The notes below the pieces were generated by a model, which was not told the DNA's origin, searched no databases, and saw only the letters and a program-made list of their open reading frames with translations. A stretch of 64,000 nucleotides of DNA, from assembly GCF_011604685.1 (NCBI RefSeq), contig NZ_CP050063.1, forward strand, positions 3,308,501 through 3,372,500, written 5' to 3'. The stretch is from Spirosoma aureum (GTDB lineage Bacteria > Bacteroidota > Bacteroidia > Cytophagales > Spirosomataceae). Positions 44,812-64,000 of the stretch are shown piece by piece. Numbering within the stretch: position 1 is the first letter of the stretch; each line of letters begins with the position of its first letter. Both the position numbers and the translations under genes were made by a program.

Positions 44812-45253
44812 ATCCGACCCACCCCACTGTCCTCGGTCTGCTCAGGGCGAACATCGGTGGCTACATCGAAGGTCTCAGCCTCGATGCGGGCGGGTAGGGA
44901 TCGGCTGGCAGCAGCCTCGAACCAGTTGAGGTTCCAACTGCCCTTGATGATCTGAATCCGCAGGGTCTGATTGCCGGCGGGCAGGTGAGCGGTAGCGCCA
45001 ATGGACTGCCAGTTCTGGGCACCCCCGGTTCGGGGCACATCGACGGTCGTCAGCAGGGTACCGTCGGCGAGTTTGAGCTGGAATTTGGCGCCATCGCTAT
45101 AGCCATTGGCGACTCGAAAGCGGAAGGTGTAGACCGCTGCGGTGGGTACATTGACTGAATAATCCATCCAGCCATCATCGGTGATCAGGCTCAGATTCTG
45201 GCCTCCGTTGTCATCCGATGTTGATTCCAATTGGCCACCCTGCATGGCATCGT
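43762..45253. repeat. two near-identical copies of a 771-bp tandem repeat (CBM6 pair)
   Basis: Positions 43762-44480 and 44533-45250 match at an offset of 771 bp with only scattered differences, and the first encodes an A-B pair of CBM6-like modules as does the second. The near identity suggests recent duplication. The single-base difference that frameshifts the gene lies in the upstream copy (in transcription order). Confidence 0.85.
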
Positions 45254-45407
45254 AGCTTTCGGCCTCGATATGACCAGGTAGCGTAACTGCAGTCTGGTAG
45301 GAAGATTGGTTCTGGCTATTATTTATGGGTATTTCTCTTGTTCCGATAAATAACACGCTACTAATTATAGTAGCGCAAATACTAGTGTGGAGTAAATGTT
45401 TTTGCAT
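44547..45407 (-). CDS. N-terminal part of the multi-CBM glycoside hydrolase, frameshifted
   Basis: 286 residues, of which only about the first 195 are in the biologically meaningful frame. A hydrophobic signal segment (MQKHLLHTSICATIISSVLFIG) precedes a CBM6-like module (LPGHIEAESYDAMQGGQLES, DDGWMDYSVNV). The second module starts at ARIEAETFDVATDVRPEQTE. After EDSG it leaves frame (VGRMWVISM), because ACCCACCCCACTG at about 44818 has four C where the sister copy at about 44046 has five. Restoring the C joins it to the main part. Confidence 0.82.
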   Translation of the reverse strand: MQKHLLHTSICATIISSVLFIGTREIPINNSQNQSSYQTAVTLPGHIEAESYDAMQGGQLESTSDDNGGQNLSLITDDGWMDYSVNVPTAAVYTFRFRVANGYSDGAKFQLKLADGTLLTTVDVPRTGGAQNWQSIGATAHLPAGNQTLRIQIIKGSWNLNWFEAAASRSLPARIEAETFDVATDVRPEQTEDSGVGRMWVISMMGTGWTTMSMWLRRACTPFSFGWPTVMETAISRFVRRVVRCWAVWMCLGRMAGKPGRRSAPRLPYRLAARSCAYMPYGAPSI

Positions 45408-47979: not shown

Positions 47980-50889
47980 ATGCCGGCTCCAGCTATCTAT
48001 TTCGAACCACCCTACGACATTCATCTGCTTCGGGGGCAATCGTTCCAAATCGTCAATGCGACAAATGCCTTTGCAACCTTACTACGAATTGGGGGAGATT
48101 TCGCGTATAATTATGTCGATAATCACCCAGATATAAGCTATACATTCTGGACCAGCTTCGACGAGGATAAGGCCAATGATTTTGGAATAACCGTCGAGAA
48201 TCCGGTCGAGCATGATCATGCGTTTGATCGGAAACCTGACTGGCTAATCACGCTGGACGCGAATGAGCCCGCTGCCGCACAAAACCGTATTCGCAACTTT
48301 TACTTATACGCCGAAGTCGAGAATGCGGCTGATAATTCCAGCAACTGGACAGCATTGCGAATTCATATTCACACGAGAATCGAAGAGGTGTGGATTACGC
48401 CTGCGGGTTTAACCATTACGCCTGGTGTTACGCATCAGACTCGTCTGCATGGTCGTTTTGACGACGATGTTATCGCTGAAATCGGTAATCAGCGTTATCA
48501 GAATGCTCGGTTTAATATTGACCCCCAGCTTGCTATAAGCTGGAATTCACCTACCCCTACTTTAGTAGATCCGGCCAACGGCTCGATCAGGGCCCAGACT
48601 ATAACCGGTATTCACGATCTGAATGTATCAGTTGCTTACGATGGGGTCACGCAAACGGCAGCCAGTCTGATCATGGTATCGGGAAATTTGGCCGCCAATT
48701 CACCCGTACAGGCCGAATTAGTGGCAACGGGAGGGTGCCCAGGCTTTCCCCGATTGAATGAAGTACCTAATATTCTCTTTTTATCCGAAGGCTTTACGCT
48801 CGAACAGGAATTCAACTTTAAAATTCTGGTTGCGGATTATGTCAAGGATTTGATGAGCAATAAAATTACCGCACCATTCAATCTGCTACGAGGCTCGATC
48901 AATTTCTGGATGATTTTTATTCCTTCACGCGAAAGCGGGGCGACATACCTGGGCGATTTGGCTGTACGCCAGAAACCGAACGAACCAATTCTACCCAAAT
49001 TAACAGGTCGTCCGATTCCATTTATTGAAAGAGATCAGAATAAGCCGGTCGACGACTGGGACATTGAGCACCTCCTGTATTGGGTCGGGTTGCCCGTGAG
49101 AGCCGAACGCGACACCAACGACCAGACCGTAATTGATAACTTGTTTACCAAGTGGGAAGCCACGACCCACCTGACAGACGAAGAAATTGAGAAACTAAAG
49201 ACGAAAAAATCGCTGATAAAGAGCTGGCAGCGACTTGGCGAAAGGCGGTTGTCTCCTGTAAAAGATACCGCTTTGGGCGTTACAATTCAGGATACAACAG
49301 CCGCCAGAAGGGAGAACGATTTTAGTGATATTGGTCTGGACCCCAAGCGCATCCAGCGCGGGGATCTGGACACTTTTTTCAGTACATTGAGGGATGATGA
49401 TAACAACCTGATCGGTCCCACCTTCGTTCAGCAGGCGAGTCCGACTCAGCCACAGGGAAAGGATTGGGATAATATTGTCGTCTTATCGGCTATTCGTCGG
49501 GGGCGGGCTGTAAATAGTACAGGATATATGTTCTCCGTCGTTGAAAAGGCATCGTATTCGGATGCCAAAGAAATATTAATTGGCGATTTAGCCACCCTGC
49601 GTGTTCCGATTGCGCCAACTGATCTGCCCGACAAACTCCCGTTAAAGTCGAAAAATACCACTACCCATGAACTGTGCCATTCGTTTGGGTTAGACGATGA
49701 ATACGGAGAGAATCCTCCTCTGGAAAGCTATAAAAATAAACCGGTCAATGATCCGATGGTTTCAGGCTGGTCGTTTGCAACGTATACAAAAGCCGCTTCT
49801 TCAGTCGATTGGTCCAGCAATGTTCAGGTCAGAGCTGACCTGGAAGTACCGGTTTCGAGTGGAGGTACTCAAATTCAGCCCTATCGAATCAAATGGCGCT
49901 ATCATCGCATTCAGAAGTGTGGAGTCGTTACCAACATCACCGTAACTAGTAATCAAATCGAGCTAACGCTGCAGAATGGCCAGGCGGCTCAGTTTACCGC
50001 CAATAAACCTGTTTTTCTACGGAAACGACGGCGGAATACGACCGTATATTTTATTCATTCCCGCGCTACCGGTCAGGATCGATTAATCGCTTCCGTTATC
50101 ACACCTAACCCACTTCCTGCTGGATTTGTAAACGCTGTTGACATAACCGCCATTGATGTCGCTAACGATCGGGTTACGCTTCGTCGTGGTACAGCTACGT
50201 TAATCGTTCAGGTAGACCGTGGACAGGCGGCTTTGTTACAAACAGGGACGGGATTTACGATTCGGTCCGAAAATAGGTATGGTCCTGTGCTGACCTTATT
50301 TCGAACAGCAGGTGCCGTACCCAATGGGCCGGATATCATTACAAAGGCAATTTCTGCTGAACTGACCGTAGTGAGCACTGATCCTGCCAACAATAGACTC
50401 ACGCTGACCAGTCCGGCAAACGCTACGCTGCCCGACTACATGAGAACCCTGGATGTAAATGAAGCCATCATTGTGTATGAGCCGATTGCCATGCCTGAAG
50501 GGCAGCGGTCGGCCGATTATCCCTATGCCGAAATTATAGCCCAGAAAGTACTTAATCACTTACTGGTTAATCCATTTGCGTTCAATACGGATGATCAACA
50601 CCGTGAAGTAATTGATCGAACGCCGGATAACACGAATATCCCTGGCCATTTAGTGCCTTGTTGCTCGAAGAGGGATAAGGAAATCATCGGTCTCTACAGC
50701 GGGGGCGATCAGCATCATGGTGGTGTATACCATCCTGCGGCCAAGTGCATGATGCGTCAACAGGTTGACGATGATCATTATACGGAGTTGTGTGCTGTAT
50801 GCCGCTATACACTGATCAACCAGATCGATCCAACAAAACATGGCGATTTCGACGCTGATTATATGAAACGGAAAATTTATCCGGATTAA
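47980..50889 (+). CDS. large M64-like metallopeptidase paralogue 1, first gene of the large-protein operon
   Basis: 969 residues with no signal peptide. N-terminal part (about 1-270) is beta-rich. From about 280 it follows the M64 (IgA-peptidase-like) layout: NILFLSEGFTLEQEF, PFNLLRGSINFWMIFIPSRESG, then a zinc motif HELCH with H563, E564, H567 and the following DDEYGE. The C-terminus has YSGGDQHHGGVYHP and KCMM with ELCAVCRYTL. All family-typical metal ligands are present, so it is probably active. It shares start (PPYDIHLLRGQS), end (CRYTLIN, KIYPD) and overall length with the next gene, so the two are tandem paralogues. Related peptidases are normally secreted; this one lacks an obvious signal. 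Confidence 0.85.
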   Translation: MPAPAIYFEPPYDIHLLRGQSFQIVNATNAFATLLRIGGDFAYNYVDNHPDISYTFWTSFDEDKANDFGITVENPVEHDHAFDRKPDWLITLDANEPAAAQNRIRNFYLYAEVENAADNSSNWTALRIHIHTRIEEVWITPAGLTITPGVTHQTRLHGRFDDDVIAEIGNQRYQNARFNIDPQLAISWNSPTPTLVDPANGSIRAQTITGIHDLNVSVAYDGVTQTAASLIMVSGNLAANSPVQAELVATGGCPGFPRLNEVPNILFLSEGFTLEQEFNFKILVADYVKDLMSNKITAPFNLLRGSINFWMIFIPSRESGATYLGDLAVRQKPNEPILPKLTGRPIPFIERDQNKPVDDWDIEHLLYWVGLPVRAERDTNDQTVIDNLFTKWEATTHLTDEEIEKLKTKKSLIKSWQRLGERRLSPVKDTALGVTIQDTTAARRENDFSDIGLDPKRIQRGDLDTFFSTLRDDDNNLIGPTFVQQASPTQPQGKDWDNIVVLSAIRRGRAVNSTGYMFSVVEKASYSDAKEILIGDLATLRVPIAPTDLPDKLPLKSKNTTTHELCHSFGLDDEYGENPPLESYKNKPVNDPMVSGWSFATYTKAASSVDWSSNVQVRADLEVPVSSGGTQIQPYRIKWRYHRIQKCGVVTNITVTSNQIELTLQNGQAAQFTANKPVFLRKRRRNTTVYFIHSRATGQDRLIASVITPNPLPAGFVNAVDITAIDVANDRVTLRRGTATLIVQVDRGQAALLQTGTGFTIRSENRYGPVLTLFRTAGAVPNGPDIITKAISAELTVVSTDPANNRLTLTSPANATLPDYMRTLDVNEAIIVYEPIAMPEGQRSADYPYAEIIAQKVLNHLLVNPFAFNTDDQHREVIDRTPDNTNIPGHLVPCCSKRDKEIIGLYSGGDQHHGGVYHPAAKCMMRQQVDDDHYTELCAVCRYTLINQIDPTKHGDFDADYMKRKIYPD

Positions 50890-50971
50890 AATGAATACCG
50901 TTGGCTAAATAGCTCTAAAGCGCTATAAGCGAATGCATTACCTTTTCTTTTCCTAAACTCAACTTTATTGT

Positions 50972-53851
50972 ATGTCCGCTCCGCGTTGTGCCTTCAACCC
51001 CCCCTACGATATTCACCTGCTTCGTGGGCAATCCATCGAACTGTCGAACTTGCTGGAGATTGATGGGACCGATGCACCGGAATACACGGACGCGCATGCC
51101 TCGATTAAATACAGTTTTCAGACGAGTTTTAATGCGTCGAATAATCTGAAGATAACGGGGACGCTCGGCAACCCGACCAGCCGAAAACCTACCTACCTGC
51201 TTAAACTGGATGCGGCTGCCCCCGCCGATGCCAAATTCCAGATAACAAGCTTTCTGGTGTATGCGATTGTAACCGATACGTCCGACAATTCCACGAGCCA
51301 GGCCGCCATTCGAATTCACGTGCACAAAACCATTCAGAAAGTCTGGATGACGCCCGACCCGATCACGGTGTATCAGGGTATGGCCGGAGCACGAGCGGCT
51401 GTTTACGCCCTTTTCGACGATAAAGTTGTGGCCGAAATCGGTGATATTTATGTAGGCGACAACGAAGAAATTGTTAAGTACACGATTACCAATAAGGTAC
51501 AGATTAAATGGAAATGTACGGCCACACCCGCGTTGATCAACGATAGCGGACGTATAACGCCGGGTAACCGTTCTGGCAACCATGTTCTCAGCATTACTGT
51601 AAAATACGGTTCACAAACACTGAATGCTACGGGCACGGTTCAGCTGTCAGACGCGCTATCAGCCAGTCAGACGACGATTAAAGCAGAGTTGATCACGTCG
51701 GGCAACTGCCCCGGTTTCGATAAACTGAACGAGGTTCCCAATATTCTTTTTCTGGCGGAGGGCTTCACGAATTCAACGGCATTCGGGCAACTACTGGATA
51801 ATTACGTATCGGATCTGGTCAGCAAAAAAATATCGTCGCCGTTCAATCTGCTGAAAGGCTCCATCAATTACTGGAAAGTATTTGTACCCTCCCGCGAAGA
51901 CGGCTTAACCTATCGGTCGGTGCTGGAAGTGCTGGAAACAGAGCCAAACCGGATGTTAGGATTACGGGCTAAAGTAGCCACAAAGCCTGCCAGCGCTGAC
52001 GCCAGTACGTGGACTGCCGAAAATCTGCTGTATTTCGTTGGCGTTCCGGTCAGGAACGACGCAACCGTTGGTAACACTGCGCTTCGGCTACGCTGGGAAA
52101 ATACGACCAAACTAACGGCAGCGCAGCTGGACGAGCTGTTTGGCCCGACGAATGGGTTGGTGGCAAGCTGGCGTTCCGATGCCGAATGCCGACTACCCGA
52201 CGCGAAAGATACGGCCTTTGGGATTAGCGTCAATGATTACACGGCGGTTGAACAGGATGGTCAGTATAACCTGATCAATTTTGATAAGCGTCGGGTGCAG
52301 CGCGATTTTCTGGATGGTTTTCTGGGGAGTTTAAAAGACACGGACAACAACCTGATCGGGCCTGTTTTTGTGATGGATACCCCGGCCGGGAATCGGGGAA
52401 AAGATTTCGATAATATTATCTTCCTGCTGGTCGATGGACGTGGTCGGGCGCAGAACGAAACGGGTTATATGTTCTCATCGGTCAACTCCGACAGTACCAT
52501 TACACTGATGGGAACCTTGGCCGATGACCAGGTATCGGAAGTAGCGATCAGTGTTCCGGCTACGATTCCGTTGCGAAAAAAAGGGACCATTACGCATGAG
52601 TTGCTTCACTCATTTGGCCTGGGGGATGAATATGGTGAAGAGCCGGACGATGATGCGTATAAGGGTAAAATCATTACCGATCCACTGGTAGTTAACTGGC
52701 CCTTTACTGCTTACAACGACCCGGCTTATTATGCCGATGAATACAGCAACGTTCAGCCCAGAAAGGATTTTGAACGGCCCAAAACAGGCGGTGGAACGGG
52801 AACTGAACTCGATGCCTATAAAATCAAATGGCGGTATCACCGTATTCAGAAGTGTTCGCTGGTAACGGCTGTCACTACGTCCGGCAATGAGGTACTGCTG
52901 ACCGTAAAGAACCCGAAGGCTGGTTTTAAGGTGGGCGAATCGGTGTTTTTTCGAAAACGACGAGTCAATCGCTATCAGCTACGGGTCTTCGATAAAGATA
53001 TGCGGGTTGTAGCCGACATTGTTAATCCGGCTACCCTGCCGACAGCTTTCACAAAGTACTACGTAAAGGTAAAATCGATCGATGCTGCCAATAACAAGTT
53101 GACGATCAAAAGCGATTTCGGCACGAATCAGACGACGATCGAGCTGATGCCTGGTCAAACCAGTTTCTTTAGTGTAGGACAGCGGTTGGATATTCGGGAA
53201 AAACGGGTGACTGATCCCATTTTTACCATCCTGCGAAACCCCGCCACCACCGCCGGTCAGCCGGACACGCAGACCTTTTTGCTGTCACCTGAACTGATCA
53301 TAAAATCGGTAGCTGGCAATCAGGTTACGGCGCAGCCGGTCGGTACAGCAACATTTCCTACTGGGCTTTCCACGCTCAACCCTAATGAAGAAATGCTCTT
53401 GTACGCGGCCGTTCCCGTTCGCGATAATCAGGGAACCAATCAATATAAATATGCTGAGTTGATAGCCAAACCGATTCTGGAATATCTGAATGACAATCCG
53501 TTTCCGCTGAATGCGAATACCACGCACGAAGAAATTATCGATACGGATGACATTCAAAATTCGACACTTCCCCCAAAGTACATTCCCTGCTGTTCCCGTC
53601 GGAAGAAAGAAATCATTGGCTTGTATAGTGGCGGAATGCGCTACTTTGGGGGAGTGTATCATCCGTCGGCTCAATGCATGATGCATGGCTACTACCTCAG
53701 CCCGAGCGATACGAAAGACAAAAAAGAACAGTTGATCGAACTCTGTGCCGTTTGCCGGTACACGCTCATCAACCTGATTGACCCAACTAAATTCGGGGAC
53801 TTCGATGCCGATTATTTAACGCGGAAAATTTATCCTGACAATTTATCCTGA
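50972..53851 (+). CDS. large M64-like metallopeptidase paralogue 2
   Basis: 959 residues, no signal peptide, paralogue of the gene 82 bp upstream. The zinc site is HELLH (H542, E543, H546) with GDEYGE after it. Other shared blocks: NILFLAEGFT, PFNLLKGSINYWKVFVPSRE, YSGGMRYFGGVYHPSAQCMM and ELCAVCRYTLIN. Its end is KIYPDNLS, three residues longer than the sister's KIYPD, because of a 13-bp tandem duplication that supplies the stop. It is 7 bp upstream of the next gene. Confidence 0.85.
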   Translation: MSAPRCAFNPPYDIHLLRGQSIELSNLLEIDGTDAPEYTDAHASIKYSFQTSFNASNNLKITGTLGNPTSRKPTYLLKLDAAAPADAKFQITSFLVYAIVTDTSDNSTSQAAIRIHVHKTIQKVWMTPDPITVYQGMAGARAAVYALFDDKVVAEIGDIYVGDNEEIVKYTITNKVQIKWKCTATPALINDSGRITPGNRSGNHVLSITVKYGSQTLNATGTVQLSDALSASQTTIKAELITSGNCPGFDKLNEVPNILFLAEGFTNSTAFGQLLDNYVSDLVSKKISSPFNLLKGSINYWKVFVPSREDGLTYRSVLEVLETEPNRMLGLRAKVATKPASADASTWTAENLLYFVGVPVRNDATVGNTALRLRWENTTKLTAAQLDELFGPTNGLVASWRSDAECRLPDAKDTAFGISVNDYTAVEQDGQYNLINFDKRRVQRDFLDGFLGSLKDTDNNLIGPVFVMDTPAGNRGKDFDNIIFLLVDGRGRAQNETGYMFSSVNSDSTITLMGTLADDQVSEVAISVPATIPLRKKGTITHELLHSFGLGDEYGEEPDDDAYKGKIITDPLVVNWPFTAYNDPAYYADEYSNVQPRKDFERPKTGGGTGTELDAYKIKWRYHRIQKCSLVTAVTTSGNEVLLTVKNPKAGFKVGESVFFRKRRVNRYQLRVFDKDMRVVADIVNPATLPTAFTKYYVKVKSIDAANNKLTIKSDFGTNQTTIELMPGQTSFFSVGQRLDIREKRVTDPIFTILRNPATTAGQPDTQTFLLSPELIIKSVAGNQVTAQPVGTATFPTGLSTLNPNEEMLLYAAVPVRDNQGTNQYKYAELIAKPILEYLNDNPFPLNANTTHEEIIDTDDIQNSTLPPKYIPCCSRRKKEIIGLYSGGMRYFGGVYHPSAQCMMHGYYLSPSDTKDKKEQLIELCAVCRYTLINLIDPTKFGDFDADYLTRKIYPDNLS

Positions 53852-53852
53852 C
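53827..53852. repeat. 13-bp perfect tandem duplication at the gene 2/gene 3 junction
   Basis: AATTTATCCTGAC occurs twice in a row (53827-53839 and 53840-53852). The second copy brings the TGA stop of the upstream gene. Losing one copy would put the upstream frame straight into the downstream gene (IYPD then EDMGTLEE) with no stop. Confidence 0.9.
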
Positions 53853-53858
53853 GAAGAC

Positions 53859-56800
53859 ATGGGTACTTTAGAAGAGATCGGGAAACATCTGGCTCTGGCC
53901 GTTCGTCCGTTGAAAGACGCGGTGAGCGACGCGGCTCATTTTCGGCAATTTATCTACCAACTGGGCTGGAAACCCACCGACATACCCCCGTCTTTTATGG
54001 CCCTGACCGTCAGGGTCGATGAAGCCCTGGCCGAACTGGATGCGCTGCTGGCCAATCCTGATCCGGAAAAGGCGCTGAAAGTGTTGGGCAAAGTGAAAGC
54101 GGTATACGAAGCGCTGGAATCAATTAGTGAAACTCCGCCGGGAGTAAACGATGCGGTTACGTTTCTGGCTGAGATTCAGGAGCGGATTTTCGAATTGCTG
54201 GTTGTCGATTATCTCACCGTAGCTTGGCCATTTCTGCTCAATTTCTTCAAAATGACGGGTGTCATCGAGCAACTAGCCGTGCCCGGTACCGCCGATCGTA
54301 GCCGTCCGTCGTTTATCCGACAGAAACTGAATTGGGATAAGATTCCGCAGATACTGACTCATCCTGATCAACTTCCTGAACTGATTTACGGATGGGGCAC
54401 TCCTAATTTCAATTTCGAACTGTTTGCTGAACATCTGCTCGAACTACTGTATGCGCTGCGGATTCCAGTCTCGCTATCACCCATAGATCCCGACACCGGT
54501 TATCGTTACGTCGATTCCGATCCTGATGATCCTGCCAGTCCACGTGTCGATCAGTTTATCCGCATCGCTTTTGCGTACCTCAACATTGCCGGACAGGACA
54601 GGGACCTGGGTCTGGCGGTTTTGGACCTGCCAGCTGTCGGTGCAAAGCTGCCGGGCATCATTATTCAGCCTGCCTTACCCTCGGAGATTACGTTGCCGAC
54701 GTTGCGGGTTCGTGAAGATGTGAATTTGATTATCAGGGCTGGTACCAACATTGCGTCCCTGTTCGGCATTTTGATCCGACCCGGTGAGATCTCGGTAAAA
54801 TACCCATTTCAGGACGGTCAGCTTCCTTCGGCTGGCTTCGGGGCGGGTGTTGAGTATGCACCGGTTCAGACGCAAACCGTGGTGGGGAGCGAGAACGGAA
54901 CCCGCCTGGAACTGAAAGGAGGTTCACTGGAGTTCAGTTTCCTGTTCAATGGTACTGATCCTGAACTGAAAATCGGCGGTAAACTGACCGATTTTGCGCT
55001 GATCCTTAACCCCGCCGACGCCGACAGTTTTATTCGAAAACTTATTGGCAGTGGCCAAACGAAAATTCCGTTTACGCTTGGATTTGAATGGTCAAACAAG
55101 AACGGTATTAAGTTTACGGGTGGGGGCGGTTTTGAAGTGGCCGTACATCCACATCTGGTGTTGGGACCGATATCCATTGAGGAACTACTCATCCGGCTAC
55201 GCGGAGAAACTGACCCTAAACCAGCCGCTATTCTGGAAATTGGGGCGGGTATTAAAGGACAGTTGGGGCCGCTAACGCTGGTAGTGCAGAACATCGGCCT
55301 GGCCCTGGTCACGACCTTCGATCGGGGAAATGCCGGACCGTTCGACATTGCTCTAGGCTTCAAACCTCCAACGGGCGTGGGCCTTTCAATTAATGGCGGA
55401 GGCTTTACGGGCGGAGGATTTCTATTTTTCGACGACGCTAAAAAAGAATATGCGGGTGGGCTAGAACTTACGTTTTCGAATACCATTTCCCTCAAGGCAA
55501 TCGGGATTCTGACTACCCGGATGCCCGATGGCACCGACGGTTTTTCGTTGCTGATTATCATTACAGCCGAGTTTACCCCCATTCAACTGGGGTATGGATT
55601 TACACTCAACGGGGTAGGTGGGCTACTTGGCCTCAACCGAACGTATCTGATTGAGGAACTGCGTAAAGGTGTTAATGACGGCTCGCTCAATTCGATTCTG
55701 TTTCCGCAAAACATTGTCGCCAATGCCACCACTATCGTTAGTAATCTCAAACGGATTTTTCCCCCGCAGCAAGGGCATTTTCTGATCGGGCCGATGGCTA
55801 AGATCGGTTGGGGAACACCTACACTGATCAGTCTTGAGCTGGGTTTGCTGCTCGAAATTCCACGGCCGGGTTTTGCCCTGTTGGGTGTACTTCGGATGAA
55901 TTTACCCGACGAACAGGCGCCCATTGTGAAAATTCAGGTCAACTTCCTGGGCTACGTCGATTTCGATAAAGGACAGATTTCGTTCGATGCGTCGCTGATC
56001 AATTCCCGGATTCTGACATTCACGCTCACGGGTGATATGGTGCTACGGTTGTACTGGAAAGAAAACGCCAACTTCCTGGTTTCGATCGGCGGGTTCCATC
56101 CATCCTATACGCCCCCGCCCATGTCGCTTCCTGCCATGAAGCGGCTGAGTCTGGTCATTTTCTCAGGGAATCCGAGCCTTAAGGCCGAATCCTATTTTGC
56201 CATTACATCCAATACCGTTCAGTTCGGTTCCAAAATTGAGTTGAGCGCCGACGCCAGCGTTTTCAACGTGTATGGATTTCTGTCTCTCGATGTACTGGTT
56301 CAGTTTTCGCCCCTGTATTTCATCGCTGAGGTAGCCGCTATGCTGGCCGTTCGGTCGGGATCGCATACATTGTTTAGCGTCAAACTCAAACTAACGCTCG
56401 AAGGACCAACGCCCTGGCACGCGCATGGGGAAGCGTCGTTTGAAATTGGCTTCATATTTACGGTTACCATTACTGTTCATTTCGACAAAACGTTTGGCGA
56501 ACGACGTAATGATACGCTCCCTCCGGTTCGGGTAATCGATAAACTGATTGAAGCGCTCAACCAATCGGGTAACTGGAGGGTTAATTTACCCATTGGTAAT
56601 CAGTATGTTTCGTTGCGGGAGTTGCCGCAGAATGGCCAGTCGCTGATCCTGCATCCGTTCGGAACGCTGAACGTAACGCAGAAAATTGTACCCCTACGTC
56701 TGGACATTGCCCGCTTTGGTTATCAGCAGCCCGATGGCCCGCGACGGTTCGCTATTTCAGGCGTGAAAGTGGGCAATACCCAGTCGACGCCTACCGATGA

Positions 56801-57281
56801 GGACTACGAAAAAGAACAGTTTGCCCCGGCTCAATTCATTGAGATGTCGGATGCTGAAAAGCTCTCCAGACCCTCGTTTGAGGCTTTTGATGCGGGTGTG
56901 CAAGTGGGAGGCTCGACGCAGCCACAGAGTGATTATGCGGTTGGTCTTGATGTGGCCTACGAGCTGATTTATGTTCCGGAAAAACAAAAACCGAAACGCC
57001 TGACTTTTGATCGTGGCTTGTTTGGGCTCTATCTGTCAACCAACGCAATCGCCCGCTCCTCATTGGCCGAAGGGCAGCGTAAACCATCGGTGCTGGGAAC
57101 AGAACCGGTTCGGGTACGTCCCGAAACATTTGCCGTTGCTACATCAGATACGCTGCAACTGCATCAGCAACTTATGTTCAACACAGAAACGGAAGCGCGG
57201 CAAGCGTTGCATAACCTTGTTCGACAGGATGCTGGATTAGCCGACGAATTGCAGGTAATTCCTTCCTACCAACTTAACTGA
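53859..57281 (+). CDS. large unrecognised beta-rich protein
   Basis: 1140 residues, no signal peptide or TM I can identify. The first 200 residues are helical (EEIGKHLALAVRPLKDAV, DALLANPDPEKALKVLGK). From about 280 to 900 the protein alternates hydrophobic and polar or glycine residues in many strands (FEVAVHPHLVLGPISIEELL, GLSINGGGFTGGGFLFF, FGSKIELSADASVF), a barrel- or prism-like pattern. The tail (about 900-1140) is mixed. From memory it may match what Pfam calls DUF6603, but I could not check this. It sits in the middle of the operon, between the peptidases and the two largest proteins. Confidence 0.7.
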   Translation: MGTLEEIGKHLALAVRPLKDAVSDAAHFRQFIYQLGWKPTDIPPSFMALTVRVDEALAELDALLANPDPEKALKVLGKVKAVYEALESISETPPGVNDAVTFLAEIQERIFELLVVDYLTVAWPFLLNFFKMTGVIEQLAVPGTADRSRPSFIRQKLNWDKIPQILTHPDQLPELIYGWGTPNFNFELFAEHLLELLYALRIPVSLSPIDPDTGYRYVDSDPDDPASPRVDQFIRIAFAYLNIAGQDRDLGLAVLDLPAVGAKLPGIIIQPALPSEITLPTLRVREDVNLIIRAGTNIASLFGILIRPGEISVKYPFQDGQLPSAGFGAGVEYAPVQTQTVVGSENGTRLELKGGSLEFSFLFNGTDPELKIGGKLTDFALILNPADADSFIRKLIGSGQTKIPFTLGFEWSNKNGIKFTGGGGFEVAVHPHLVLGPISIEELLIRLRGETDPKPAAILEIGAGIKGQLGPLTLVVQNIGLALVTTFDRGNAGPFDIALGFKPPTGVGLSINGGGFTGGGFLFFDDAKKEYAGGLELTFSNTISLKAIGILTTRMPDGTDGFSLLIIITAEFTPIQLGYGFTLNGVGGLLGLNRTYLIEELRKGVNDGSLNSILFPQNIVANATTIVSNLKRIFPPQQGHFLIGPMAKIGWGTPTLISLELGLLLEIPRPGFALLGVLRMNLPDEQAPIVKIQVNFLGYVDFDKGQISFDASLINSRILTFTLTGDMVLRLYWKENANFLVSIGGFHPSYTPPPMSLPAMKRLSLVIFSGNPSLKAESYFAITSNTVQFGSKIELSADASVFNVYGFLSLDVLVQFSPLYFIAEVAAMLAVRSGSHTLFSVKLKLTLEGPTPWHAHGEASFEIGFIFTVTITVHFDKTFGERRNDTLPPVRVIDKLIEALNQSGNWRVNLPIGNQYVSLRELPQNGQSLILHPFGTLNVTQKIVPLRLDIARFGYQQPDGPRRFAISGVKVGNTQSTPTDEDYEKEQFAPAQFIEMSDAEKLSRPSFEAFDAGVQVGGSTQPQSDYAVGLDVAYELIYVPEKQKPKRLTFDRGLFGLYLSTNAIARSSLAEGQRKPSVLGTEPVRVRPETFAVATSDTLQLHQQLMFNTETEARQALHNLVRQDAGLADELQVIPSYQLN

Positions 57282-57295
57282 TACCATAACCGATC

Positions 57296-60202
57296 ATGAG
57301 TTTAGCCCGATATACCTTCCTGCCATGGCTGCGCCGGGGCATTGCGAATCAACTCACTCAGGGAGCTACTACGTCGCGGGCACAACTGGACGTTAGCCTG
57401 ACGGTTAATGGCGACACAGCTCATCCGATCACCAAAACCGTTAGTCTGATTGGGCCGGGCGATGTGGTGGGTATCAATCAGCAGATGATTGTGCGTACGG
57501 AGCCGCGTAATCTGATAACGGATTTCGAGCCGAACTACCTGGCTTTTGTTGAGTTTTACGATGAAGATTTTCCCTGGCGATACACCCCCGATCGAGTTCA
57601 GAACAACCACCGGCTTAGCCCGTGGATTGCGCTGGTCGTGCTGAAAGAAACGGAATTTACGGATGTGAACACGGGCAATCGGCCTTTGCCCGCTATTTCT
57701 ATAAAGGCTGCCAGAAACGATGTTTTGCCGCCACCTGCCGATACATGGGCCTGGGCGCATGTGCACCTGAACGAACCCATCGATCATCCGGGTAATCAGC
57801 CCAATCTAACGCAATTGGATAATCTGCTACGTAACTCGCCCGATCGGGGCATTTCGCGGCTAATGTGCCCCCGGCATCTGGAGCCGAACACAGCTTACCA
57901 TGCTTTTCTTGTACCCGCTTTCGAGATTGGGCGAAAAGCGGGTTTGGGAGAATCCGTCAACGATTCGGACCCGGCTCTTACCATGTCGTGGGCGAAAGAC
58001 GAAACCGGGGAGAAAGAGTATCCGGTATACTATCGCTGGTTTTTCCGAACGGGCGTTGGTGGTGATTTTGAATCGCTGGTGCGGTTGCTACAGCCACGCG
58101 ACATGGACAAGCGGGTCGGTATTCGGGATATGGACATGCAGGCTCCCGGTTTTGGCATTGGCGCCATTTCGGTTCAGCCCGATAACACGGTTGGGTTAGA
58201 AGGGGCCTTACTGGCACCCACTACCGAGCGGAAACCGAACTATCCCTTCGATTCGGTCAGTGATTTTCCTGAAAAAGTAAAGCCGATCATCAATCTGTCG
58301 GAAGATGTTCGTGAGGCCAATGGCAGCACCGATCCGGTCATTACGCCCCCTCTGTATGGCAAATGGCATGCCCTGATCAGCCGATTGAGCCTTGAGTCTG
58401 ACGAACAGAACTGGGTCCATGAACTGAATCAGGACCCGCGTTACCGCGTCCCGGCGGGTATGGGAACCCTTGTGGTGCAGAAAAATCAGGAAGATTACAT
58501 GCGCAAAGCCTGGCAACAGATCGGGGATGTTCTGTCGGCTAATCAAAAAATTCGATTCTCGCAGTTAGCCATGCTGACCAGCATACAGCTTCATCAGAAG
58601 CATCTGGCTAGTCTGGATGATACGCTTCGGCTTGCTCTGACGGGACAACTTCATAAAAAAGTACGTAATGGAGCCACAACGGTGCATTTTCAGGTACAGC
58701 AGAGTTTGTTGCCTGTGGCCAGCGTAAGTGGTGCTTTTCGCAAACTCGTTCGACCACGGGGACTGATGGCGAAACGTCTGGAGATGAGTACGCCCGTCCG
58801 GAGTTTTACAAGTCTGATTCAGGGAATGAACACGGGAAAACTCACGGCGGCTCCTGCCAAAGTTGTTCCGCCCGAAGCGCAGACGCTGCCAGCAGAAATA
58901 GGCAAGCAGTTGGATTACAGTGCCGATGCCGTCAAAAACATTGGGGCACGGGGTAACTTTAAAATTCTTCTTCCCGGACAGACCCAGGCCCCGATCATCC
59001 GACGAATCAACCGGGATAATGCCGTAGCCAAAGTGTTCAGAACCGCCCTTACCAATTTGCACGAAGTGATGGTCGAACAGGTTATGCCCCCACCCGTGAG
59101 GCAGCCTGCAGGCATTAACGTGATTAGCCAAACGCTGATGAATGCGCTCAATCCGCTCAATACGTTCCCGGTTCGGGTATTGCCTGGCATTATCCAGGGC
59201 ACTGGAATCGTCCCGAAACTGGATCGGGTGATGGCATACCCCGACATCAGAGATGCCATGTATGAGCCGCTGGTGGCCATCAATAAAGAATTCTTTGTGC
59301 CGAATCTGAACCTGATTCTGCCCAATACATTGTCGCTGATGGTAACGAATCAGCCGTTCATTGAAGCATACATGGTGGGGCTCAATCACGAATTTATGCG
59401 GGAACTACTCTGGCGCGAATACCCCACCGATCAGCGCGGAACACCGTTTCGACAATTCTGGAAACCAATTGGGGATACCCAAACCGCAGCTTTACCCCCG
59501 AAAGTGCAGGCAGAAAAACAGAAAGATATTCCACCCATTAACGAATGGCTGCTCAATGCACCGGAGAAAATACACTTGGGCGACCATAACCATCGGCTGA
59601 CGGAGGTCGAAGATGGGTTACTGGTATTGGTCATTCGGGGTGATTTGCTCAAACGCTACCCGAATACGGTTATTTATGCGCAGCAGGCACAATGGGGTAC
59701 AGAGCCTGACAGCCTCAATCGGTTAGTACTGGTTGACACGACCGGTCAGGCTGTGGCTGATGGCGTTCATATCAAAAATCCGATTTATAAGGCGCAAATC
59801 GACCCCGACCTTCATTTTATCGGCTTCGACTTATCAATTCCGCAGGCCAAAGGTGATGTGAAAGAAGAAACGGCGGCCGAAAAGCAACGGCTGGGTAACA
59901 ACAACTTAGGCTGGTTTTTTGTGATTCAGCAGGTTCCCGGCGAACCCCGGTTTGGTCTTGACGACGAGGCTGTTACAAACCCAAGCCCGCAGAAATGGGA
60001 CAATCTTTCCTGGAATACCCTCGGTAATACGCAGGGAGTGATTGACATGAGCAAGCCCTTTGTGCAGTCGCTGACGGGCCAGAACCCGGATGCCGTTGAC
60101 TGGAATACGCAGTCTGCTGATCTGGCTTACATTCTTTTCCAGAAACCTGTCATGGTGGCCGTTCATGCCCGCGAAATGCTGAAAAACCTTGTTGCGCCTT
60201 AA
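57296..60202 (+). CDS. large unrecognised protein, conserved N-terminal 'FLPWLRRG' type
   Basis: 968 residues, no signal peptide. I do not recognise the family. The N-terminal part has TFLPWLRRGIANQL, SLIGPGDVVGINQQMI, VRTEPRNLITDFEPNYLAF and YDEDFPWRYTPD, followed by LSPWIALVVLKETEF and DTWAWAHVHL, regularly spaced and well formed. The C-terminal third has LVLVIRGDLLKRYPNTVIYA and LHFIGFDLSI. Start ATG 57296, 14 bp after the previous stop; 11 bp before the next gene. I have a vague memory of similar large hypothetical proteins in actinobacteria, not verified. Confidence 0.7.
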   Translation: MSLARYTFLPWLRRGIANQLTQGATTSRAQLDVSLTVNGDTAHPITKTVSLIGPGDVVGINQQMIVRTEPRNLITDFEPNYLAFVEFYDEDFPWRYTPDRVQNNHRLSPWIALVVLKETEFTDVNTGNRPLPAISIKAARNDVLPPPADTWAWAHVHLNEPIDHPGNQPNLTQLDNLLRNSPDRGISRLMCPRHLEPNTAYHAFLVPAFEIGRKAGLGESVNDSDPALTMSWAKDETGEKEYPVYYRWFFRTGVGGDFESLVRLLQPRDMDKRVGIRDMDMQAPGFGIGAISVQPDNTVGLEGALLAPTTERKPNYPFDSVSDFPEKVKPIINLSEDVREANGSTDPVITPPLYGKWHALISRLSLESDEQNWVHELNQDPRYRVPAGMGTLVVQKNQEDYMRKAWQQIGDVLSANQKIRFSQLAMLTSIQLHQKHLASLDDTLRLALTGQLHKKVRNGATTVHFQVQQSLLPVASVSGAFRKLVRPRGLMAKRLEMSTPVRSFTSLIQGMNTGKLTAAPAKVVPPEAQTLPAEIGKQLDYSADAVKNIGARGNFKILLPGQTQAPIIRRINRDNAVAKVFRTALTNLHEVMVEQVMPPPVRQPAGINVISQTLMNALNPLNTFPVRVLPGIIQGTGIVPKLDRVMAYPDIRDAMYEPLVAINKEFFVPNLNLILPNTLSLMVTNQPFIEAYMVGLNHEFMRELLWREYPTDQRGTPFRQFWKPIGDTQTAALPPKVQAEKQKDIPPINEWLLNAPEKIHLGDHNHRLTEVEDGLLVLVIRGDLLKRYPNTVIYAQQAQWGTEPDSLNRLVLVDTTGQAVADGVHIKNPIYKAQIDPDLHFIGFDLSIPQAKGDVKEETAAEKQRLGNNNLGWFFVIQQVPGEPRFGLDDEAVTNPSPQKWDNLSWNTLGNTQGVIDMSKPFVQSLTGQNPDAVDWNTQSADLAYILFQKPVMVAVHAREMLKNLVAP

Positions 60203-60213
60203 TCCTTAACGCT

Positions 60214-63200
60214 ATGAATCTGATAGATATCCAACAGAAAGCCTCCCAATTGGCCGCTGAGCGGGATAAGGCGTATGGGCAGGTCGTGGAGCAATTTACC
60301 ATACTGAATGCACTCGAAAAGGAAGTGGCGCAGTTGAAAGCCCGTGGAAAACTGTCGGATAGCGATACCGTGATACTGAAACAGCGTTTAGCCGAAATCG
60401 ACAGCGCCCAACGGAATCTGGTGGAAATGAAGAAGGGCGTTCTTGAAGGCCGGGTGCGGGAGCTGGCTGATTATCAGGCAATGTTTGATGCGACGCCACA
60501 GAAACTGATCGAACAGTTGCCCGACAGCTTGCCGTTTGTACTCTTCCCGGTTCGAATAGAAACCCATTTCCATTCGGTGGGCGATACGCATGAGCTTTGG
60601 GTTCGGGTTTATCCGGATGAGATCACGACGTTTACGCACGAAAAAGACCTTACGGCGGATGAAATCGAGTCGGGCGAAACCTACTGGCGACAGGTTTGGG
60701 CAACCCGAACCGAAACCGACGAAGCGGGTAAACAGCTGCGGACAACCCTTTGGAATGGGTTAGCTAACCGATTTGGCGAGAACCGGGCGGCTTGGGTAGC
60801 CCGGCAAACGCAGCCGACTAACTGGTCGGCGCAGTGGCGAACCCTGCCCGAATTGATTCTGAAACCGCAGAATACACCCAAACCCCAGCCCTGGACGCAG
60901 GCACCGCACACGCGGCTGATGCCGAATCAGTTTGTCGTTATGGCATTTTCGGGTGTACGGAAAGTGCTGGAAACGGTTGGGAGTCCCATTCCCGACTATC
61001 TGGTGATGGGACCTGATCCCCTTCAGATGGAATCATCGTTCGGGCGCGATGCCGATAATAAACTGGTATACAGTAAGGAAATGGCCTGGCTGTTCGATTT
61101 CGACGAGGCCCTGGCCGTTGGGATGGCGATTAAAATGACATTGCCGAGTCCCTGGTTTCAAAGAGGATTTGATCGGCTGGTGGTGCTGGGTGTCCGGTTC
61201 AGTACCGATGCTGTACAGAATCAGCAACTCCTGGAAGAACTTGTTCAGAACCACAATTATTCAGCTGAAGGAATCAGTATTCTGCCACAGGGCACGCCCA
61301 CCAACAACACCGAAAAAGCGACGGCAGGACCTTCAGCATCAATCAATCGCCAGCAGGAGGTAGAAGAAAATACTCCCTATTTTTCGCCAGTTGACGACTT
61401 CTACCAGCAGTCAGATGGTCAGCGGTTTGCCGAAGCGTTAGGTGTCAGTAATGAGTCGGTTTCTTTTGTGCCCAATGCAGGCTGGAACGATGTTCGGGAG
61501 GCATTGGCCATGAATAATGCACTCTGGCCTGCCACCTGGGGACTGTTCCTGAACGACCTGCTGAAACCGTTGGTTAGTCGGTCGCGCCAGACCCTGGTCC
61601 GTCAGTTTTTTACCGAATTTGTAACGGGCAGGGGCGGGTTGCCTGCCATTCGGGTAGGTAATCAGCCGTACGGATTGCTGGTGACAAGTGACTTTAACAG
61701 TTGGCAGTTTACCGACGCCGAGCTGGGCACCGATAAAGATTTCTGGGTAAAATTGCTGGCCATTCTACAGCAGTTACAAAGCCAGTGGGAAACGCTTCGT
61801 CCGCAGGTCGCCTTTGCCGGGAAGGAGGGAAGTAATCCCGAAAACCTGATGAACATGCTGGGCTTACAGGCTTCGTCGGTGGTCTTTCATTCCCGTAAGG
61901 CCGTGACAGATAGCTATGTCTGGAATTACCTTAACTTCCGGGCCTTAACACCCCAGACCGTAGGGCTTTGGGGTAGATTACAACGGGCTAAAGAACAGCA
62001 GTTTACAGCCTTAGGATTCAATGCGGCTACAGACTTTCTACTCGAAAAGTTGATTTTCCAGACAGCCACCGATGAGTTGAATGGCCCGGTTATCGATGCT
62101 GATCCGCGAACCCCACTGTCGGAAACGGCATTGATTCAGCCATTCAATGGGACCGATAATTACATTGACTGGCTGCTGAAAAGCGATTTGCAGACGATCA
62201 GAAATGGTCAGTTTCTGGATGCGAATAACCAGCCCGTTGCCCCACCAAAAGCACTTTTGTATCAACTTCTTCACCGAGCCTATCTGGAAGAATTCGGGCA
62301 ACGGATTGCTGACTGGCTCGTTGATCAGCGATTCCTTCAGGATCTGCCTGTTGAAGGCCAGTTACAGAATATGGACGGTCAGCAGGATATCACGAAAGCT
62401 GATTATTTTCAACTCGATGCGGCCAAGCTCCGACTTTCCCAAACGGCCATGCCCGTTGGCGAGTTTATCCGTGCGTTAATTCCCAAACCGGGCGAGCCCT
62501 ACAACGGTCCCACCGAGATGCTGCCCTTGATGGGCGTGATCGACGCGTTACGCACGCTTCGCGGGTTGCCTACTGCCCGGCTGGAACGGCTGTTTGCCGA
62601 ACACCTTGATTTGTGCAGTTACCGCCTGGATGCCTGGCAAACCGGACTTTTTGCGCGTCGGCTCTATAATCTTCAGCACACCGAAAAGAACGAATACCTG
62701 CGAAAAGGTACGTATCTGGGTGCATACGGATGGGTTGAAAACCTTAGACCCAACACCACCAAAACGGGCTTTCCACAAGATCAATACCCTGCCCCTCTGC
62801 AGGACTCCAAAAACAAAACGATTTACGAAGATGCCGCCAATGGAGGGCATATCCAGACCCCCTCGTTGCGTCATGCGACAACGGCTGCCCTGCTTCGTAA
62901 CGCGTATCTCTCCCACGGTGATGATAACGCACAGTTTGCCGTCAATCTGTCGTCGGAGCGGGTTCGGCTGGCTCTGAGTTATCTGGATGGTATTCGGAAT
63001 GGGCAGGAACTGGCGGCTCTGCTGGGGTATCAGTTTGAGCGTGGTCTGCACGATCGGGGCTTGCTGCTGAACCAATATATTTACGTACTGCGTGATCGGT
63101 TTCCGTTGGCGGCAAAACAGTTAACGCCTGTTCCTGACAATGCTCCGCAGGAAGTAGTAGAGGCCCGTAACGTCATAAATGGCTACGACTTGCTGGACTA

Positions 63201-64000
63201 CGCCCGCGCTCATCCGACTCTTCAGGGAATAGCCAGTCTGCCAGCCGACGGAACGACTGAAAAGCAGGCCATTCTGGACGAATTGAACCGGCTCACCGAT
63301 ACGCTCGACGCCATCGCTGATCTATCGTTGTCGGAAAGTGTGTTTCAGGCGGTTCATGGCAACTACGATCGGGCAGGAGGCATGATGCAGGCCATTTCGG
63401 AAGGGAAAATGCCCGCGACCCCCGAAATTGTCGACACGCCCCGCAGTGGCACATCCATTACGCATCGGGTAGCGGTTTGTCTGCAAACCGATGGGGTAGG
63501 TGATCAGCATCCGGCCTGGAGCGGACCAGCTTCACCTCGCAGCAAAGTGAATCCGTTCGTCAACTATTGGCTTGGGGAGCGGCTTCCCCAGGCCGCGTCT
63601 ATCCAGTTTCAGTATCAGGCTGGGGCGGTAGATGACATACTGTCATTAGCCCAATTTACGTTGCAACCGCTTGATCTGGTCCTGATGACTGGGTCTGAGC
63701 TGGGTGCGCTTTCATCGGAAATCGAGCGGTGGCTGACGTATCAGATTCGGCAGAATTTCAACATTTCGGATGGGCAATCCATTACGTTTGATTTTCATAA
63801 AGCCGAATCAAACGGTGTATCATTTGCGGCTCTGTTGCCACTGTTACGTTCCCTGAAAAAGATTATAACAGAAGCCCGTCCGCTTCATGCCCTCGACTTT
63901 TTTCCACAAACCCAATCCTATCTCGAAGGTGTAGCGAATCCATCCGGCTATCAGGATTTAGCTACCTGTAAAACGGACCTGGAAGCGGCTACTGCGGAAC
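60214..64000 (+). CDS. very large unrecognised protein, 3' end outside window
   Basis: At least 1262 residues, open to the right edge. ATG 60214 is 11 bp after the previous stop. The first about 85 residues are a coiled coil (AERDKAYGQVVEQF, ILKQRLAEIDSAQRNLVEMK), then FVLFPVRIETHF and ELWVRVYPDEITTFTHE, then a long mixed region without a clear enzyme motif. The vicinity of 61600-61680 (RQFFTEFVTGRGGLPAIRVG) and 62880-62990 look well ordered. No signal peptide, no TM. Function unknown. Confidence 0.7.
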   Translation, partial: MNLIDIQQKASQLAAERDKAYGQVVEQFTILNALEKEVAQLKARGKLSDSDTVILKQRLAEIDSAQRNLVEMKKGVLEGRVRELADYQAMFDATPQKLIEQLPDSLPFVLFPVRIETHFHSVGDTHELWVRVYPDEITTFTHEKDLTADEIESGETYWRQVWATRTETDEAGKQLRTTLWNGLANRFGENRAAWVARQTQPTNWSAQWRTLPELILKPQNTPKPQPWTQAPHTRLMPNQFVVMAFSGVRKVLETVGSPIPDYLVMGPDPLQMESSFGRDADNKLVYSKEMAWLFDFDEALAVGMAIKMTLPSPWFQRGFDRLVVLGVRFSTDAVQNQQLLEELVQNHNYSAEGISILPQGTPTNNTEKATAGPSASINRQQEVEENTPYFSPVDDFYQQSDGQRFAEALGVSNESVSFVPNAGWNDVREALAMNNALWPATWGLFLNDLLKPLVSRSRQTLVRQFFTEFVTGRGGLPAIRVGNQPYGLLVTSDFNSWQFTDAELGTDKDFWVKLLAILQQLQSQWETLRPQVAFAGKEGSNPENLMNMLGLQASSVVFHSRKAVTDSYVWNYLNFRALTPQTVGLWGRLQRAKEQQFTALGFNAATDFLLEKLIFQTATDELNGPVIDADPRTPLSETALIQPFNGTDNYIDWLLKSDLQTIRNGQFLDANNQPVAPPKALLYQLLHRAYLEEFGQRIADWLVDQRFLQDLPVEGQLQNMDGQQDITKADYFQLDAAKLRLSQTAMPVGEFIRALIPKPGEPYNGPTEMLPLMGVIDALRTLRGLPTARLERLFAEHLDLCSYRLDAWQTGLFARRLYNLQHTEKNEYLRKGTYLGAYGWVENLRPNTTKTGFPQDQYPAPLQDSKNKTIYEDAANGGHIQTPSLRHATTAALLRNAYLSHGDDNAQFAVNLSSERVRLALSYLDGIRNGQELAALLGYQFERGLHDRGLLLNQYIYVLRDRFPLAAKQLTPVPDNAPQEVVEARNVINGYDLLDYARAHPTLQGIASLPADGTTEKQAILDELNRLTDTLDAIADLSLSESVFQAVHGNYDRAGGMMQAISEGKMPATPEIVDTPRSGTSITHRVAVCLQTDGVGDQHPAWSGPASPRSKVNPFVNYWLGERLPQAASIQFQYQAGAVDDILSLAQFTLQPLDLVLMTGSELGALSSEIERWLTYQIRQNFNISDGQSITFDFHKAESNGVSFAALLPLLRSLKKIITEARPLHALDFFPQTQSYLEGVANPSGYQDLATCKTDLEAATAE

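Follow-up and report, generated by a model that had tools for sequence, protein, structure and literature searches.

In the NTP-dependent conflict systems of Kaur et al. (2020; PMC7159879), operons that share a conserved core carry trypsin-like peptidases in alternation with caspase-type ones, and the abstract places such systems mainly in multicellular prokaryotes. The words 'M64', 'PhoD' and 'subtilase' do not appear in the main text of that paper, where subtilisin is mentioned once, and our literature search found no paper joining M64, PhoD and subtilase in one gene cluster, returning otherwise analogues or nothing. Two known peptidase families and one protein family also bear on the locus described here: the M64 peptidases (PF09471), of which solved chains (3p1v, 4df9) are 407-409 residues long; the NARROW LEAF 1/S1 trypsin-like peptidases; and DUF6603 (PF20248), a family without assigned function, for which we found no paper using either name. 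The cassette that we describe is like the NTP-dependent conflict systems in having alternating peptidases beside a conserved core. It is unlike them in that Pfam finds no MoxR, vWA or STAND NTPase in any of its six genes (g1-g6), and its core families have no Pfam relation to theirs.

The window, by which we mean the whole stretch of 64,000 nucleotides that was analysed, covers bases 3308501-3372500 of a single-contig 8.9 Mb genome of Spirosoma aureum. At its right end, the ORF call gives frames of 969, 959, 1140, 968 and 1262 residues, all on the + strand and the last open at the edge, with gaps of 82, 7, 14 and 11 bp, exactly as an initial annotation of this DNA had reported. Tandem frames of such length are not chance. 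That annotation had taken five families as the unit and had pointed to the sequence right of 64000. Reading past the edge, we find six genes: g5 ends at 65004 and g6 follows. The first two, g1 (47980..50889, +; 969 residues) and g2 (50972..53851, +; 959 residues), are M64-like paralogues and belong to an exchangeable first position that is occupied by other genes elsewhere. The remaining four form the core, consisting of the DUF6603 protein g3 (53859..57281, +; 1140 residues), g4 (57296..60202, +; 968 residues) and g5 (60214..64000 in the window and on to 65004 outside it, +; 1596 residues), both without a known family, and g6 (584 residues), which begins 13 bp after the end of g5 at window-equivalent positions 65018-66772. 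Close relatives of the g6 protein carry the names Spirosoma and Larkinella. The ORF after g6 looks by eye like an oligogalacturonate-lyase-type gene, which we take to be unrelated to the unit.

The assignment of the first two genes to M64 is based upon several comparisons. Against the Pfam M64 family, with a cut-off of 26 bits, g1 scores 35.7 bits and g2 falls under the cut-off at 16.6 bits; g2 aligns with g1 at 41.6% identity over 995 columns (blastp). An HExxH zinc site lies at residues 563-567 of g1 (49666..49680, +), inside HELCHSFGLDDEYGE, and the alignment places its counterpart at residues 542-546 of g2 (52595..52609, +). The motif is present in all six aligned M64-like sequences (g1, g2 and relatives), and a profile of these six proteins matches the solved M64 peptidase 3p1v (E 0.00033) over an alignment that covers both the zinc site and the C-terminal Cys motif. 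When the whole genome was searched with the M64 family, nothing matched at E 0.001. The earlier assignment of M64-like zinc sites to both proteins holds, and we consider g1 and g2 M64-like metallopeptidases with predicted activity. They share the HExxH and C-terminal Cys motifs with M64; they differ from it in their length of about 960 residues, in showing no signal peptide under a crude rule, and in sitting in a cassette.

Downstream of the pair, g3 matches DUF6603 far over the cut-off (450.2 bits, 1.1e-134, cut-off 27). Of the three proteins that the initial annotation could not place, one therefore belongs to a family, while for g4 and g5 its judgement stands. Neither these two nor g6 has a Pfam match over the cut-off, with g5 and g6 scanned in full, and neither PHROGs nor NCBIfam offered an acceptable match for g4 or for as much of g5 as lies in the window. 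Profile-profile comparison of g3, g4, g5, g6 and M64 among themselves revealed no relation. The g6 family is large: 7998 candidates were scored, and 4090 of them proved to be relatives at E 0.001; 120 listed members carry no Pfam domain, and the names shown are 'hypothetical' or 'uncharacterized' protein.

A scan of species-representative genomes with g6 confirmed at least 532 loci out of 589 matched stretches. The best 80 of these come from Bacteroidota, Chloroflexota, Cyanobacteriota, Acidobacteriota, Pseudomonadota, Myxococcota, Actinomycetota, Bacillota and others, phylum names that we mostly assigned by eye from the record titles. Among these 80, g3-g6 were present in 51, g4-g6 in 16, g5 and g6 in 9 and g6 alone in 4, in loci that extend only 10 kb or to the contig end; judged by where g6 lies, this limit accounts for the missing genes in all but L081, in which neither g4 nor g5 could be detected although nearly 10 kb are available upstream of g6. 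DUF6603 was found in each of the 34 genomes chosen from the 80 loci. Neighbouring core genes lie on one strand within 300 bp in 69/73, 78/81 and 81/85 of the measured pairs, overlapping loci of one genome being counted apart, and none of these pairs is on opposite strands. In a draw of 296 genomes spread evenly over Bacteroidota, DUF6603 occurred in 13, and g4, g5 and g6, for which the best 2 to 4 candidates per genome were scored, each occurred in the identical 6, all within the 13. A draw of 59 relatives, the window's genome included, yielded 7 with DUF6603: besides the window, four that could be read fully have g3-g6 in order (g4 in pieces in one), one (G001) is cut by a contig end, and one (G046) has a DUF6603 of intermediate score and lacks g4-g6.

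Thus, g3-g6 are one ordered core in many bacterial phyla and in a haloarchaeon, and that they constitute a system is near certain. That they encode one multi-protein machine is shown as far as gene order and co-occurrence go. The initial annotation had proposed a single undescribed system, to be supported by the same gene order and co-occurrence in other genomes, and on this point its proposal is borne out across phyla. That the genes are unrelated, came to be neighbours by chance and each have an ordinary role of their own, in favour of which stand the lack of a core gene with known function and the solitary g6 of L081 and L134, is extremely improbable against an order conserved over many phyla together with co-occurrence.

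On plasmids, 14 of 72,556 records match g6, and four of these were read. On a haloarchaeal plasmid and a Streptomyces longwoodensis plasmid, g3-g6 are preceded by a PhoD-like gene; a Rhizobium plasmid has g3-g6 with g4 and g5 each split into two genes; and a Streptomyces anthocyanicus plasmid has g6 alone, with no detectable g4 or g5 (L134 is a Streptomyces plasmid). Viral contigs gave no g3 match, and the one g6 match among them is a short fragment lying where its contig ends. While g4, g5 and g6 share the same 6 of 296 genomes, M64 is swapped for other families elsewhere. Counting against our reading of the cassette are g6 without detectable g4 or g5 in L081 and L134, and the DUF6603 of G046 without g4-g6.

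Of the other seven DUF6603 genomes in the 296-genome draw, one has a weak hit and six have a different context without g4-g6, which we call type B. Here a more distant DUF6603 accompanies a shorter protein that is similar to g4 at its N-terminus (hhalign 88% probability, 75 columns), and several loci add a protein of 1199-1337 residues with no detectable relation to g5. The design may therefore have begun with a DUF6603 protein and a g4-like partner.

The sequence before the core was read in 44 loci, a count that leaves out L166, L136 and G001 (contig ends) and L134 and G046 (no g4). A hydrolase-type first gene stands in 33 of them, in six classes: trypsin-like S1 (9), PhoD-like (9, one in pieces and one weak), M64 (6, including a fragment where a contig ends), subtilase S8 (5), a putative class U (3) and PLD-like (1). 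In the other 11, no hydrolase was recognised in first position. The three class U proteins have conserved His and Cys motifs in common, with one weak DUF4347 match (E 0.054), and are, by our own label, putative cysteine peptidases. The trypsin-like genes of several loci match NARROW LEAF 1/S1 peptidases, some under the Pfam cut-off; unlike those, they bear an extra C-terminal domain that they have in common with subtilases. The subtilase module of L121 matches the PADLOC subtilase and IetS models. A Trypco1 match in L155 (E 0.0018, below the cut-off) is not relied on because the frame apparently starts too early. First genes stand in tandem copies in the window, L114, L120, L122 and L126, with three copies in Larkinella.

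How these classes are distributed can be seen on a g5 tree of 37 rows, made by a quick method for the overall picture only, in which long branches were joined (G040 with G015, L135 with L138) and L064 occupied 18% of columns. Counting 'none' as one, the six labels require 18 changes where the least possible is 5; shuffled labels require 23.4, so that the real ones are more clustered, as is expected of inheritance. Adjacent rows are often of different class, and phyla are interleaved. Profile matches show that M64 lies outside the core and that the first position swaps predicted hydrolases of at least five unrelated families. This weakens the earlier suggestion of proteolytic maturation. That one large assembly is matured by its own proteases agrees with the presence of peptidases of four classes (one putative) next to giant proteins; we consider it hardly probable with a first position that is PhoD-like in 9/44 loci, PLD-like in 1/44 and without a recognised hydrolase in 11/44.

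A C-terminal domain of about 135 residues is common to all nine trypsin-like and three of the five subtilase first genes (blastp E down to 4e-15, and alignments). It has no Pfam match in the proteins scanned, and a PDB profile search with it gave nothing useful. Searches did not find it among first genes of the M64, PhoD-like or U classes or at two of the subtilase loci, L124 and L155 (G369, G378). Across the 34 cassette genomes, it occurs in 10, with 13 hits, each within about 3 kb upstream of DUF6603. In the 296-genome draw, with up to 13 candidates per genome scored, it occurs in three genomes, two with the cassette and one without (G087), where a trypsin-like gene carries it. A protein search with the corresponding region of L123 returned 37 proteins; 10 have a Pfam domain, all of trypsin/NAL1 type and none a subtilase, so the sharing between S1 and S8 rests on blastp, the alignments and the search of cassette genomes. 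The domain is strongly, though not absolutely, tied to the cassette and is likely a docking module. Our preferred reading has against it that 11/44 loci have no recognised hydrolase there, that the domain is absent from the M64, PhoD-like and U genes and from 2/5 subtilases, and that G087 has it without the cassette.

Where would such a complex reside? By a crude home-made rule, signal-peptide-like starts were found in 0 of 38 g3, 79 g4, 82 g5 and 89 g6 sequences, counts in which overlapping loci may repeat one sequence. As a control, the rule was applied to six window proteins that we judged by eye to be exported or to lie in the membrane, and five scored above its threshold, as did one of eight PhoD-like proteins. 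Pfam found no T9SS sorting domain in g1-g6. The earlier statements that the proteins lack signal peptides and sorting domains are therefore upheld within these tests, and the core's lack of signal peptides by the crude test suggests that the complex is made in the cytoplasm and stays there.

The further claim that transmembrane segments are lacking applies to the window's g4, whose best 19-residue hydropathy is 1.24, and fails for many of its relatives. A strongly hydrophobic stretch is present at a single place mid-protein in 34 of 75 distinct g4 proteins and absent from 41; 33 of the 34 have at least two windows of 19 residues above 2.0, and the median uncharged length is 37.5 residues. In the window, the g4 match is split (model 3-550, then 630-1073), omitting the 79 model positions 551-629 at 58888..58907 (+), which from their position probably coincide with the hydrophobic stretch. 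The 20 residues before the stretch are net basic (2.7 vs 1.3 per protein); those after it (2.7 vs 2.8) are acidic as often as basic, and charge accordingly leaves the topology unsettled. The stretch may be mostly hairpin-like, with both ends on one side, which would fit a membrane-tethered cytoplasmic complex. A Fisher test over 28 rows linked it to effector class (p 0.003); we do not claim this link, since only 3 independent pairs exist on the tree.

A hydrophobic stretch within otherwise soluble-looking proteins would also fit a particle or a complex resembling a toxin that is put together in the cytoplasm without signal peptides and leaves the cell by lysis or another route, with the hydrolase as cargo and the g4 stretch entering a target membrane. 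Such hydrolase classes are often secreted elsewhere. The PhoD-like first gene of L138 bears a peptidoglycan-binding domain, haloarchaeal g6 ends in an annotated lamin-tail domain (two copies, as we judge by eye), and an actinobacterial DUF6603 carries Kelch repeats, all of which would suit a particle. Against it, the five window proteins have no PHROGs match better than E 0.17, and PDB profile searches with g4, g5 and g6 found no meaningful solved relative, toxin and tail proteins included. The flanks offer no strong secretion or lysis partner, with no Pfam family (first 25 of 140 families) in more than 3 of 118 flanking proteins, and with T9SS sorting tails and peptidoglycan-binding domains in only 2 each. 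We regard release as a particle as unlikely, and as a serious rival.

The properties of g3 raise another serious rival, an envelope or lipid-handling machine in which DUF6603 would form a groove or rod of amphipathic beta structure, with an envelope substrate for the hydrolase to process. Beta-type amphipathicity reaches z 3.7 against shuffles in g3 and z 8.0 in an N-terminal extension of about 1000 residues in a relative, and bridge-like lipid transfer proteins consist of five-stranded beta meanders in repeated succession (PMC7613979). Hydropathy windows above 1.8 occur in 24 of 38 g3 sequences (maximum 2.08), and we take them for putative beta strands. Yet profile comparison of g3 with the extension gave no match, the sparse spread (6/296) argues against housekeeping, and the cassette is present in Gram-positive taxa and an archaeon too. 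A PDB profile search with g3 gave nothing useful, only matches of about 45 residues to small helical, mostly designed proteins (best E 0.0002). We consider an envelope role improbable.

We favour a scaffold that resides in the cytoplasm, is often tethered to the membrane, and both docks one of several interchangeable hydrolases and holds it in check, perhaps as a conflict or immune system, and give this reading a probability of roughly 0.42. In such a mechanism, g3-g6 would act as a large-protein scaffold and sensor restraining a hydrolase until a trigger arrives, and the gene or genes before DUF6603 would be the enzymatic output of the machine. The C-terminal domain of about 135 residues would dock S1 and S8 hydrolases on the core, many versions would be held at the membrane by the hairpin-like g4 stretch, and the freed hydrolase would attack proteins or phosphoesters of the cell or of an invader. 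The window's version would have two M64 metallopeptidase effectors and a g4 without the stretch.

This proposal draws on features that resemble effector modules of conflict systems: unrelated hydrolases that replace one another beside a constant core, a shared domain for docking, duplicates in tandem and a patchy cross-phylum spread that includes Streptomyces, rhizobial and haloarchaeal plasmids. Several of the organisms among the g6 loci are filamentous or multicellular. Counting against a conflict role, Pfam recognises no sensor, NTPase or nucleotide-signalling domain in g1-g6. PADLOC-DB 2.0.0 gave nothing better than E 0.028 for g1, g3, g4 and g6; single flanking proteins match ThsA, TIR, SspH, LmuA/B and other PADLOC models, and in a defence-island test no PADLOC family occurred in more than one of 118 flanking proteins (118 of 326 flanking ORFs). 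Immunity taken by itself falls somewhat short of even odds. The most specific version, a new bacterial and archaeal immune or conflict machine in which an often membrane-tethered scaffold of four proteins, none with a known fold, docks unrelated hydrolases (metallo-, serine- and perhaps cysteine peptidases, PhoD- and PLD-like enzymes) by way of exchangeable modules and releases them on a trigger, we put forward tentatively.

The initial interpretation of this locus is thus partly supported. The four-gene set is widespread, occurs in bacteria and archaea, and is apparently undescribed; it is rare to come upon some 4300 conserved residues that work with enzymes open to exchange. The docking domain, the g4 stretch and the catalytic sites provide handles for clean mutants. 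Should the system be immune, it would add a type of defence that is not built around an NTPase; should it prove to be a released particle, it would be one more delivery system.

Parts of the cassette were found broken up or apart from their usual partners. In a genome of the same genus as the window (G015; loci L019 and L020), a cassette with a PhoD-like first gene is present, and both this gene and g4, a gene of the g3 to g6 core, are fragmented, reflecting either decay or sequencing errors. An unverified record named 'Bacteriophage sp.' (L136, MT835531.1) contains g4-g5-g6 and the end of g3, together with many long overlapping frames, which suggest that it is a mislabelled, G+C-rich bacterial contig. 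The core gene g6 was also found without g4 or g5 being detectable in a Saprospiraceae genome (L081:9941), and a solitary copy, possibly a remnant, lies on a Streptomyces anthocyanicus plasmid (L134:19941-21746), with IS5 transposase genes a few kb away. A haloarchaeal g6 (L135:19983-22697) is annotated with a lamin-tail domain, and by our own reading carries two at its C-terminus. The putative docking domain occurs on a trypsin-like protein in a cassette-free genome (L160:9880-11292). Within the window, two overlapping minus-strand frames (41197-45407) share what we read as tandem carbohydrate-binding-like repeats, and seem to belong to a single large secreted protein whose reading frame changes within the repeats.

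DUF6603, the family of g3, also occurs with added parts. One protein of 2203 aa (L149:9626-16237) is extended at its N-terminus by ~1000 residues, apparently made up of repeated beta strands, and in Actinomadura DUF6603 is fused to Kelch repeats (L155:7785-14072), in an open frame whose N-terminal part weakly matches Trypco1.

A second DUF6603 arrangement, type B (L139-L144, L148 and L151-L154), comprises DUF6603 proteins of 1070-3223 aa whose neighbours are large but different. At L139, the gene preceding DUF6603 matches DUF4135 (LanM-type). Finally, one comparison genome (G046; L021 and L022) encodes a 1359 aa DUF6603 protein of intermediate score. Its gene stands in a run of large genes, with products of 380-1493 aa, and g4-g6 have no match among them. 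This run is possibly a third arrangement of DUF6603.
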